Both the position numbers and the translations under genes were made by a program. From Myxococcaceae bacterium JPH2 (GTDB lineage: Bacteria > Myxococcota > Myxococcia > Myxococcales > Myxococcaceae): a DNA stretch of 64,000 nt. Positions 26,747 through 33,286 of the stretch are shown here, piece after piece (the first letter of the stretch is position 1; each line of letters begins with the position of its first letter). The stretch is from NCBI GenBank assembly GCA_016458225.1, contig JAEMGR010000012.1:1-64000 (forward strand). Reading direction: 5' to 3'. The notes beneath the pieces were generated by a model, which was given only the letters and a program-made list of their open reading frames with translations, ran no database searches and was not told where the DNA came from.

Positions 26747-27460
26747 ATGGCTACCCCCCACATCTCCGCTGCCCCTGGTGATTTCGCTGACGTCGTCCTC
26801 ATGCCGGGGGACCCGCTTCGCGCCCGCTACATCGCCGAGCGCTTCTTCGAGAACGCCCGCAACGTGACCTCGGTGCGCAACATGCTGGGCTACACCGGCA
26901 CGTACCAGGGCCGGAAGCTGTCCGTGCTGGGCCACGGCATGGGCGTCCCGTCCATCTCCATCTACGCGACCGAGCTCATCAAGGAGTTTGGCGCGCGCGT
27001 GCTCATCCGCGTGGGGAGCTGCGGCGCCCTGCGCCAGGACGTGCAGGTGCGCGATGTCATCGTCGCGCTCGGCGCGGGCACCGACTCCAAGGTGAACCGC
27101 ATGCGGTTGATGGACCACGACTTCCCGGCCGTGGCGGACTTCGAGCTGGCGCGCAAGGCGGTGGATGCCGCGCGCAAGCGCTCGCGCTCGGTGCGCGTGG
27201 GCTCGGTGTTCACCTCGGACCTGTTCTACCACCCGCAGCCGGCGCTCAATGACGCGCTGGAGCGCATGGGCATCCTCGCGGTGGAGATGGAGGTCGCGGG
27301 CCTGTATGGCGTCGCGGCCGAGTTCGGGGCGCGGGCGCTCGGGCTGCTGACCGTGTCGGATCACCTCCGCACGGGCGCGAAGCTCACCGCCGAGGAGCGT
27401 CAGACGACCTTCGACGAGATGATCGAGCTGGCGCTCGACGTCGCCGTCTCCGAGGCGTGA
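26747..27460 (+). CDS. deoD: purine-nucleoside phosphorylase DeoD-type
   Basis: The 237-residue protein matches hexameric PNPs throughout: [18 protein letters not shown] at the start, [25 protein letters not shown], the [12 protein letters not shown] segment that contacts the ribose, and [10 protein letters not shown] with the catalytic Asp. It splits purine (deoxy)nucleosides with phosphate into base and (deoxy)ribose-1-phosphate in the cytoplasm. The length is normal. Its stop overlaps a GTG of the next gene, suggesting coupling with the AlkB-like gene; a salvage-repair link is only inferred. Confidence 0.95.
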
Positions 27461-27465
27461 GTTCG

Positions 27466-28362
27466 ATGGCGCCTCCACCTCGTCCTGGCCGTGGAGGCGC
27501 CCCGCGCCACCGGGTGAGCCAGCGCACGCCGGGCCACCACTACAACGGTAGCTTCCTGTCCGCGGTGGACCGCGGGGCCATCCTCGCGTGGCTGGGCGCG
27601 CTGCATCCGCTGTGGGAGGAGCGCTACTCCCAGCACTTCCCTCCGCCCGCGGGACAGACGCAGCGGCGCTTGCTGCGTCCGGTGTACTGGTTGGGCAACT
27701 GGCAGTTCGCGTGTCTGGACTACTACCGCCCGCCGAAGGGCGTGTGGAACCGGTGCGTGAAGGCCGAGCCCTTCCCGGACGTGCTCCAGCGTCAGGTGGA
27801 GAAGGTGGAGGCGCATGCGCGCCGCATGTTCCGAGGGCCGGACATGCCTCGGGGCTGGCACCTCAACACGTGCCTGGTGAACTTCTACGGCAACCGTCTG
27901 GAGGATGGGCGCTGGGTGGACACCGCGCGGGTGGGCGAGCACAAGGACTTCGAGCCGGGCCCCGTGGCGTCGCTGTCCTTCGGGGAGCGGGCGCTCATCC
28001 AGTTCGTCACGTCGTCCCGGCCGGGCGAGCGGGACGCGGTGCTGCTGGAGCAGTGGTTGGATGACGGCTCGCTGCAGTTGTTCGGAGGCGCGCAGTGGAA
28101 GGAGCAGACCTTCCACCGGGTGCAGCGGGTGGACACGCGCGCGGGCCATGTGTTGAAGCCGGAGCTGCCGGACTTCCAGACCCGCCGCATCAACCTCACG
28201 TTCCGCTTTGTGCCGGACGAGCACGTGACGCTGTTCGCGCGGCTGTCACCCGAGGCGCGCGAGGACGTGCGGCCGTACATGGAGACGCTCGCCCAGCACA
28301 GCGCGTTCTTCCGCGCCGAACTGGAGCGCGAAGCGGCGAAGCCGCCGCCTCCCCAGCCATGA
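27466..28362 (+). CDS. AlkB-like 2-oxoglutarate/Fe(II) dioxygenase
   Basis: ATG 27466 gives 298 residues; GTG 27457 overlapping the deoD stop would add three. AlkB features are the NTCLVNFYGN sequence before the metal site, GEHKDFEPG with the HxD iron ligands, a later His in QTFHRVQRV, and RRINLTFRFV carrying the Arg residues that bind 2-oxoglutarate. Members demethylate alkylated DNA or RNA bases. The N-terminus has an extra 60 residues relative to AlkB. It is adjacent to and overlapping deoD and ends before a hairpin shared with the convergent LysR gene. Confidence 0.85.
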   Translation: MAPPPRPGRGGAPRHRVSQRTPGHHYNGSFLSAVDRGAILAWLGALHPLWEERYSQHFPPPAGQTQRRLLRPVYWLGNWQFACLDYYRPPKGVWNRCVKAEPFPDVLQRQVEKVEAHARRMFRGPDMPRGWHLNTCLVNFYGNRLEDGRWVDTARVGEHKDFEPGPVASLSFGERALIQFVTSSRPGERDAVLLEQWLDDGSLQLFGGAQWKEQTFHRVQRVDTRAGHVLKPELPDFQTRRINLTFRFVPDEHVTLFARLSPEAREDVRPYMETLAQHSAFFRAELEREAAKPPPPQP

Positions 28363-31078: not shown

Positions 31079-33286
31079 CTACGAACTCGTTTCCGAGGAG
31101 CCCATGTTGGGGGTGGGCTTCGGCCGGCCCACGTAGCTCACCTGTGGGCCGGAGCGCGGCTGTGACCGCGCTCCTCCGTTGCCATTAGGGCGAGGCTGGC
31201 GCGTGTTGCCCGAGGCGCGAGCGTCGTCTCGGGGGCCGCGAGGATGCCCGTTGGTGCGAGCTTCTCCGGCAGGAGCCTGCGCGTCGCGAGGAGGACGCCC
31301 GCCGTTGCCGCGCGGCCGCTCGTTGACCGGTCGTGCGTTGGAGGCGTCTCGCGTCGAGCCCTCGGCGCTTCGGTCATTCGAGGTCGGAAGGGAGGCGTCG
31401 TTGCCCCGTGCGGAGCGCGCGCCATTCCCGCCGCGCGACCTGCCTGACGCATTCGAGCCGTTGCTCTGCCCACCGTTCACGTCGCCAGAGAAGCCTGCGC
31501 TGCTGCCCTGGCCACCGGCTGCGTCGCTGGAGAAGTTCGCGCCGTTGCTCGAATCGCCGTTCGTGCCGCGAGCGTTGCCGGAGAAGTTCGCACCGTTGCG
31601 CGGTCCACCGTTCCCACGACGCGGTCCGTTGTTTCCGTTGCGCGGTCCGCCGTTCGTGTTGCGCGCGTCGCTGGAGAAGCCCTCTCCGTTGCGCGCTTCG
31701 CTGGAGACGCCTGCACCGTTGCGCGGTCCGTTGCTTCCGTTGCGCGCCTCGCTGGCGAATCCCGCCCCGTTGCGCGGTCCGTTGCGTCCGTTGCGCGTGT
31801 CGCCGGAGAAGCCCTCTCCGTTGCGTGCGTCACTGGAGAAGCCCGAGCCATTGCGCGGTCCGTTGCTTCCATTGCGTGTGTCGCTGGTGAAGCTCTCTCC
31901 GGTGTTCCCGGTGCGCGCGTCGCTGGCGAAGCTCGCACCGTTGCGCGGTCCACCGTTCCCGTTGCGCGTGTCCCCGGAAGAACTCGTGCCGTTGCGCGGT
32001 CCGTTGTTGCGCGCATCCCCGGAGAAGTTCGCGCCGTTGCGCGGCCCGTTGTTTCCGTTGCGCGCGTTGCCGGAGGCGCCCGCGCCATTGCGCGGTCCGT
32101 TGTTCCCGTTGCGCGTGTCAGCCGAACCGTTGACCGGAGCGCCGTTCGCGCTGCGCGCATCGCCCGAAGCGCGGGCGCCGTTCGGGGCACCCCCGTTGGG
32201 CCGGGCGCCGTTGGCGTTGCTCGCGTTCGCGGGACGCTGACCCCCGGGCGATGCCGGACGGTTCGGGCCTCCCGAGCGCGGGGGCGGGCGGTTGGACGAG
32301 AACGGCCGGCGACGGTTGTCTCGCGGACTCGACATCACCGCGGGCTTGCCTCGCTCGCCGCCACCCTGCTTGAGCACCAGCGCTTCCAGGGCTCGCAGCT
32401 CGGCCTCCTCCTGCTCCTCGGCGGTCAGCGCGGGCCCCGGAGTCTCCTCCACGACGGGTTCGAGGACGGGCTCCGGCCGGAACTGCGGGCGGCGCTGCGA
32501 GTCACGGAAGCCCGCTCCGCCTCCGCGACGGGGCGCGTCCCGGAACGCGCCCGAGGGCACGAACTCTGGCGTCAGGTCCCGCCGCACGTACGCGTTCCAA
32601 ATCTCCGCCGTGTCCCCACCCAGCGACCGCAGCCGCGACGAGAACCCCGCGAGGAAGTTGCGGACGTTGTCCAGGTCGCGCCGGAAGTAGAACTCCGCGC
32701 GGTTGTTGCGCGCGGCAGCCACCGTCTGCGGGAAGTCGATGATGGTCGGCCCCACGCCGCTCATCAGGATGTTGTACGGCGACAGGTCGCCGTGGATGAG
32801 GTCGCAGCACAGCGTGCGAATCACCTGGCTGCGCAGGTCCGCGTAGAGCGCTTCGGCTTCCTCGGGCGTCGTCGGCGGTGCTTCCACCAGACGCGGCGCG
32901 GGGCTGCCCTGCGCATCCACCACCAGCTCCATCAGCAGCACGCCCTCGTAGAACATCACCGGCGTGGGCACGCGCACGCCCTGGGCGTGCAGCTTGTAGA
33001 GCGAGTCCGCTTCCGCGCTCTTCCAGGCGTCCTCGGCGGCGGCTTGCCCGAAGCGGCTGCCCTTCTCCATCGCGCGGCGGGTGCGCGAGTTACGAACCTC
33101 ACGGCCCTCCCGGTAGCCGACGTTGTTGCGGAAGTTGCGCTCGTGGCGCTCCTTGTACAGCTTGGCGGCGATGACCTGGCCGGCGTGCTGGACGAGCCAG
33201 ACCTCCGCCTCCTTGCCTGTCTTCAGCTGTCCGATGACGGCGTCGATGATGCCGTCAGCGAGGAGGGTATCGAGGGAATCAGTCAT
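31079..33286 (-). CDS. RIO-type kinase with long Asn/Gly/Arg-rich tail
   Basis: This is a 735-residue protein. The N-terminal 250 residues are a RIO kinase: TGKEAEVWLVQHAGQVIAAKLYK (ATP-site Lys42), IHGDLSPYNIL (catalytic Asp167, Asn172) and TIIDFPQ (metal Asp184). RIO proteins are atypical kinases or ATPases; eukaryotic ones act in ribosome assembly, while bacterial roles are unclear. After a short acidic helix (EEQEEAELRALEALV, about 290-305) comes a tail of about 420 residues dominated by N, G, R, P, S and A. It includes about ten degenerate repeats of the form SxDARNGxNGPRNGA, and looks intrinsically disordered and RNA-binding-like. The ATG is preceded by no strong Shine-Dalgarno. Confidence 0.9.
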   Translation of the reverse strand: MTDSLDTLLADGIIDAVIGQLKTGKEAEVWLVQHAGQVIAAKLYKERHERNFRNNVGYREGREVRNSRTRRAMEKGSRFGQAAAEDAWKSAEADSLYKLHAQGVRVPTPVMFYEGVLLMELVVDAQGSPAPRLVEAPPTTPEEAEALYADLRSQVIRTLCCDLIHGDLSPYNILMSGVGPTIIDFPQTVAAARNNRAEFYFRRDLDNVRNFLAGFSSRLRSLGGDTAEIWNAYVRRDLTPEFVPSGAFRDAPRRGGGAGFRDSQRRPQFRPEPVLEPVVEETPGPALTAEEQEEAELRALEALVLKQGGGERGKPAVMSSPRDNRRRPFSSNRPPPRSGGPNRPASPGGQRPANASNANGARPNGGAPNGARASGDARSANGAPVNGSADTRNGNNGPRNGAGASGNARNGNNGPRNGANFSGDARNNGPRNGTSSSGDTRNGNGGPRNGASFASDARTGNTGESFTSDTRNGSNGPRNGSGFSSDARNGEGFSGDTRNGRNGPRNGAGFASEARNGSNGPRNGAGVSSEARNGEGFSSDARNTNGGPRNGNNGPRRGNGGPRNGANFSGNARGTNGDSSNGANFSSDAAGGQGSSAGFSGDVNGGQSNGSNASGRSRGGNGARSARGNDASLPTSNDRSAEGSTRDASNARPVNERPRGNGGRPPRDAQAPAGEARTNGHPRGPRDDARASGNTRQPRPNGNGGARSQPRSGPQVSYVGRPKPTPNMGSSETSS
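31517..32116 (-). repeat. degenerate repeats encoding NGPRNGA-type motifs
   Basis: About ten imperfect units, most near 51 bp (17 residues), encode variants of FSxDARNGxNGPRNGA; some units are shortened to FSSDARNGE. Codons vary between copies (TTGCGCGGTCC, TTGCGCGCGTC on the plus strand), so the repeat is mostly kept at protein level. Confidence 0.75.

Follow-up and report, generated by a model that had tools for sequence, protein, structure and literature searches.

RIO kinases of archaea and eukaryotes mature the small ribosomal subunit. Among solved structures, archaeal and eukaryotic RIO1 proteins (1zp9, 4otp, and 6zxg) are the best matches, by both fold and sequence, to the bacterial protein described here, and they share its catalytic motifs, but its bacterial host has no pre-40S particle, and the composition and motifs of its tail are unrelated to theirs. 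The C-termini of eukaryotic RIO proteins also diverge and probably set functional specificity (PMC8112863). We found no paper in the literature that establishes what a bacterial RIO kinase does. The closest named family is that of the PA4780-type RIO1-like kinases of Pseudomonadota (NF041645), whose kinase domain is 40 to 52% identical over its length and shares the same motifs, both groups being without an extra N-terminal domain. PA4780-family proteins finish in a short, mostly acidic, helix-like end, in contrast to the basic disordered tail of 80 to 655 residues found in Myxococcota.

A RIO1-like kinase with a long disordered tail

The window, that is, the whole 64,000-nucleotide stretch of DNA that we analyzed from Myxococcaceae bacterium JPH2, contains an ATG-start open reading frame (ORF) encoding 735 amino acids (aa), a RIO1-like kinase followed by a disordered tail (positions 31079 to 33286, minus strand, as are all features below unless stated). 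The kinase domain spans residues 1 to 250 (32537 to 33286), as supported by Pfam RIO1, NF041645, AlphaFold2, and Foldseek. Its match to RIO1 (PF01163; E value of 4e-33, 115 bits versus a Pfam gathering cutoff of 22) is the only one in its own genome. In a 40-sequence alignment, G24, K25, and E26 of the P-loop KTGKEA (residues 22 to 27; 33206 to 33223), the ATP-binding lysine K42 (33161 to 33163), D167 and N172 of the catalytic loop HGDLSPYN (residues 165 to 172; 32771 to 32794), and D184 of the metal-binding motif IIDFPQ (residues 182 to 187; 32726 to 32743) are invariant. These residues also align with archaeal Rio1, in which the P-loop reads TGKEA and the catalytic loop HADLSEYN. AlphaFold2 pLDDT is mostly above 90 over this domain, and in Foldseek searches, Rio proteins, including ribosome-bound RIO1, rank first by fold (RIO1, E value of 1e-13). 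The protein thus has a predicted RIO1 fold and is apparently an active ATPase/kinase. The first-pass annotation had described a RIO kinase with intact catalytic residues fused to a long low-complexity tail, and the ORF, the RIO1 match, and the invariant motifs show this arrangement to be real.

The protein is related to NF041645 but is not a member: its score of 280.8 bits lies below the curated equivalog cutoff of 350 bits, and the alignment covers positions 6 to 251 of 274, the C-terminal part being absent. Its 735 aa also fall outside the compact length of 278 to 291 aa. RIO2 was rejected as well, since the first helix and strands of the kinase start at residue 3 and leave no room for an N-terminal winged-helix domain.

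The tail after residue 250 comprises 485 residues rather than the roughly 420 first estimated, and its low-complexity disordered core extends from about residue 331 to residue 711 (31154 to 32296). AlphaFold2 folds only the kinase and one helix behind it, with pLDDT mostly below 50 in the tail, and the charge-hydropathy relationship places the tail on the disordered side. The degenerate SxDARNGxNGPRNGA units noted earlier were recovered at about residues 380 to 600 (31487 to 32149), with nine occurrences of GPRNG and nine of [DEN][AT]RN[GT], and they appear in the DNA as imperfect 45- to 51-bp repeats. The last 480 residues include 93 G, 64 N, 61 R, 57 S, 54 A, and 44 P. A classical RGG box is ruled out by the counts (2 RGG and 8 RG versus 41 NG, with aromatic residues scarce), so that the proposed likeness to the Arg/Gly tails of eukaryotic RNA-granule proteins is weak. 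The tail showed no similarity to other proteins of its own genome.

Two further observations concern the same DNA. An ORF of 353 residues lies antisense to the repeat tail (31179 to 32240, plus strand), the third codon positions of both frames coincide, and it is probably a by-product of GC-rich codons, without support of its own. The 41 Asn-Gly pairs of the tail fall within 31121 to 32149 (minus strand). Asn-Gly is prone to spontaneous deamidation, a putative process here that would lower the charge of the tail as the protein ages.

Distribution and origin of the tail

We compared the protein sequences of 97 distinct orthologues from Myxococcota with 75 from elsewhere; of the latter, 69 came from the genome collection and 6 from plasmids. 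The 75 relatives outside the phylum, nearly all from Pseudomonadota, are 278 to 291 residues long, in agreement with the expectation that bacterial RIO kinases are normally compact, and their short, mostly acidic, helix-like C-terminal end carries a net charge of −12 to +4. The Myxococcota orthologues are 330 to 905 residues long, and all 97 carry a tail, of 80 to 655 residues (in many cases only 80 to 150). A search for the kinase-tail pairing, which the first-pass annotation had suggested within Myxococcales, thus finds it phylum-wide, and instead of short unrelated tails without conserved composition, it finds tails whose bulk properties are kept. No relatives were found in phages.

The kinase-domain tree places 89 Myxococcota sequences in one clade and all 75 outside sequences in another. 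A small third clade holds 8 Myxococcota sequences, mostly from other classes, which retain the acidic helix-like stretch and have a basic tail added behind it. This topology suggests either two or more independent origins of the tail or its loss outside the phylum, two histories that the midpoint rooting does not separate. Within the family to which the window belongs, a RIO1 match exceeds the cutoff in 86 of 96 genomes, and some of these matches are only weak. A PA4780-type match is missing from many genomes of the same family (G043 to G050 and G081 to G087, except G046 and G083), so either parts of the family can do without the gene or incomplete assemblies have hidden it.

What varies and what is kept

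The repeats themselves are not a conserved trait, contrary to what the NG/RG composition of this one tail had implied. NG is common in only three genera (the window's own, Corallococcus, and Myxococcus) and is present in zero to two copies in the other genera sampled, where the repeats are quite different (HGENGQPRMNGQ, VEQRGGPRSPQ, and REGGFDGPPRSDRPR). Core units differ between genera, and lengths vary up to twofold between congeners. Net charge, on the other hand, is positive in 97 of 97 orthologues (+12 to +34), with an Arg/Lys ratio of about 25:1, and the repeat core has an omega of 0.13 to 0.44 in eight species pairs, values that depend on an uncertain core alignment. Judged from the sequences, what is kept in the tail is charge, disorder, and two short motifs, and the repeats are incidental. 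The tail is in frame with the kinase, has an omega below 1, contains conserved motifs, and is found in every orthologue of the phylum sample, which together argue that it is more than a product of chance.

The first motif, M1, is specific to a subclade and consists of a predicted helix (residues 289 to 307) running into LKQGGGERGKP (residues 305 to 315; together 32342 to 32422). The helix followed by LxQGGGERxKP occurs in 46 of the 97 Myxococcota orthologues. M1 has no nonsynonymous changes in eight species pairs (omega of 0), and its pattern has a single match in its own genome. The second motif, M2, is PQVSYVGRP (residues 714 to 722; 31121 to 31147) and lies 13 residues before the C-terminus. 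Its pattern, PxVxxVxR, is present in 70 of 97 Myxococcota tails, in none of the 75 outside relatives, and in 0.6% of shuffled tails, with a pN of 0 to 0.04 and an omega near 0 in species pairs. It is spelled PQVSYVxR in the genera Myxococcus and Corallococcus and PEVIRVxR in another family, where a strict DNA pattern for PEVIRVxR matches exactly once in each of 9 genomes out of 12, always inside the RIO gene. In the window's own genome, the pattern search places M2 in the RIO gene and returns two further M2-like DNA matches, about the chance level, one of which carries an in-frame stop. The C-terminal 30 residues gave no match when searched against solved structures. In one orthologue (L009), an M2-like element (RGPEVSFKG or RGPERSFNG) recurs at several places along the tail.

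Net charge is buffered

In five clades, we compared net charge with all other residue-class differences, 43 in total. Net charge was the least variable of these in four clades (standard deviation [SD] of 1.0 to 2.0 charges) and the second least variable in the fifth. In the genus Myxococcus, which holds Myxococcus eversor, net charge is +28.2 (SD, 2.0) in tails of 333 to 655 residues. The stretch from M1 to M2, taken by itself, gives the same picture (+29.1; SD, 2.4; 240 to 565 residues). In 43 independent contrasts computed on the kinase tree, changes in basic and acidic residues were tightly correlated (r = 0.98, slope = 0.86); the partial correlation given length was 0.91, compared with −0.43 to 0.19 for every other class pair. 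Net charge evolved about 35 times more slowly than it would with independent basic and acidic counts. The sequence pattern underlying the buffering is an acidic residue two positions before Arg ([DE]xR), which is 3.8- to 3.9-fold enriched in three genera with different units but only 1.7-fold enriched elsewhere. Across the whole phylum sample, longer tails have a somewhat higher net charge, which indicates that the charge set point differs between clades.

As a control, we examined the tails of DEAD-box helicase orthologues, which vary far less in length than the RIO tails; net charge ranked 2nd of 43 in one genus and 20th in the other. Buffering is therefore strong in the RIO tail but may be a wider feature of disordered tails rather than one peculiar to these kinases.

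Possible roles of the tail

Our leading reading, held tentatively and at somewhat less than an even chance, is that an apparently active RIO1-like kinase carries a polyelectrolyte tail that binds RNA or ribosomes and is anchored near its C-terminus. In this reading, the short acidic C-terminal end seen in compact relatives has, in Myxococcota, been lengthened by or given way to a long, disordered, polycationic tail. The target of this tail would be RNA, with rRNA of ribosomal particles or other ribonucleoproteins (RNPs) the likeliest candidates, and contact would be made by unpaired arginines whose number stays roughly fixed, the variable [DE]xR units serving as spacer. M2 would fasten the tail to one particular partner; in one subclade, M1 would fasten it to a second. 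The tethered kinase would then act locally and probably work as an ATP-driven switch, as Rio1 does in archaea and eukaryotes. Through multivalent contact with RNA, the kinase could also become enriched in RNA-rich assemblies. A stricter form, in which a ribosome- or RNA-tethered RIO kinase depends on a selected surplus of Arg over acidic residues (about 28 to 31 in the genera Myxococcus and Corallococcus) plus a clade-wide anchor, with sequence and length otherwise free, is possible but doubtful.

Several points count against RNA or the ribosome as the target. The window tail has few RGG motifs and aromatic residues, the solitary gene offers no partner by neighborhood, and charge buffering is not unique, since it recurs in the helicase tails of one genus out of two. 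DNA, membranes, and acidic proteins are further targets that polycationic tails can bind. If the RNA- or ribosome-binding reading is true, this protein would be the bacterial equivalent of RIO kinases that bind the ribosome, and its tail would be a clean natural example of a disordered region in which net charge is the trait that is conserved. A phylum-wide tail with fixed charge and a specific end motif provides a handle on the partner of the kinase, and the 97 natural variants, constant in charge but not in length or sequence, offer a ready test of selection on disordered regions.

We consider it unlikely that the tail is instead a condensate scaffold, driving phase separation of the kinase or its entry into RNP bodies so that concentration of the enzyme is the point. 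The tail is long and of low complexity, and roughly one Phe per repeat unit in the window's genus (FSSD or FASD) gives it a sticker-and-spacer look. Condensates have been demonstrated for bacterial proteins, namely, for PomY in Myxococcus (PMC10307791) and around RNase E (BR-bodies; PMC10412687), to which the RIO tail may be likened by analogy, with no sequence relation implied. However, Phe makes up about 1% of tails overall and numbers only one to four per core in the genus Corallococcus, many tails are just 80 to 150 residues long, and buffered charge together with M2 points to a defined binding role.

Binding to the nucleoid or to an acidic protein, with the polycation contacting DNA, RNA polymerase, or another acidic surface at which the kinase acts, appears decidedly unlikely. 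The charge is generic enough for such a role, and M2, which is specific to RIO, resembles a peptide that recognizes a particular protein partner, but the precedents in the Rio family are ribosomal.

Disordered tails often regulate kinases, and Ser-containing units adjoin Arg in the window's genus, yet we regard an autoregulatory tail, whether one that inhibits the kinase intramolecularly or one that the kinase itself phosphorylates, as very unlikely. Ser content varies across the 97 orthologues (median, 5%) and is not conserved, and AlphaFold2 models of this protein and a short-tailed relative (L113) leave both tail and M2 undocked on the kinase. These two predictions, limited by shallow alignments at M2, would favor an external partner. 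Least likely of all is near-neutral expansion of a slippage-prone, GC-rich appendage that is merely tolerated, which would fit the DNA-level repeats, the differing units, and the uneven lengths but not a core omega below 1, conserved M1 and M2, net positive charge in all 97 tails, and its buffering.

Genomic context and a similar tail

The RIO gene is solitary and is not linked in any conserved way to genes for ribosomal components or RNA, and we found no Rfam element or sigma-70-like promoter near it. No conserved operon or partner gene was found beyond the sister genus, except for a 2OG-Fe(II) oxygenase of the PF13532 (AlkB-like) type at varying distance (27457 to 28362, plus strand, downstream of the RIO gene). 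In the window's genus, Corallococcus, and some genomes of the genus Myxococcus, this oxygenase lies 3 to 9 kb downstream in a kept orientation relative to the RIO gene, and the other neighbors change between those genomes.

A DEAD-box helicase (L211) encoded elsewhere in the same genome (around C9:373551-374063) has an R/G-rich disordered tail of similar makeup. Like the RIO protein, it combines a folded enzyme with a disordered tail rich in G, R, P, N, Q, and S, a conserved C-terminal end (PKW), and partly buffered charge; unlike the RIO tail, its tail is about 70 to 125 residues long, contains little acid, and varies little in length. This is a resemblance only. At the very end of the helicase orthologues stands a conserved PKW[FLG], which is another candidate for a short motif closing a disordered tail.
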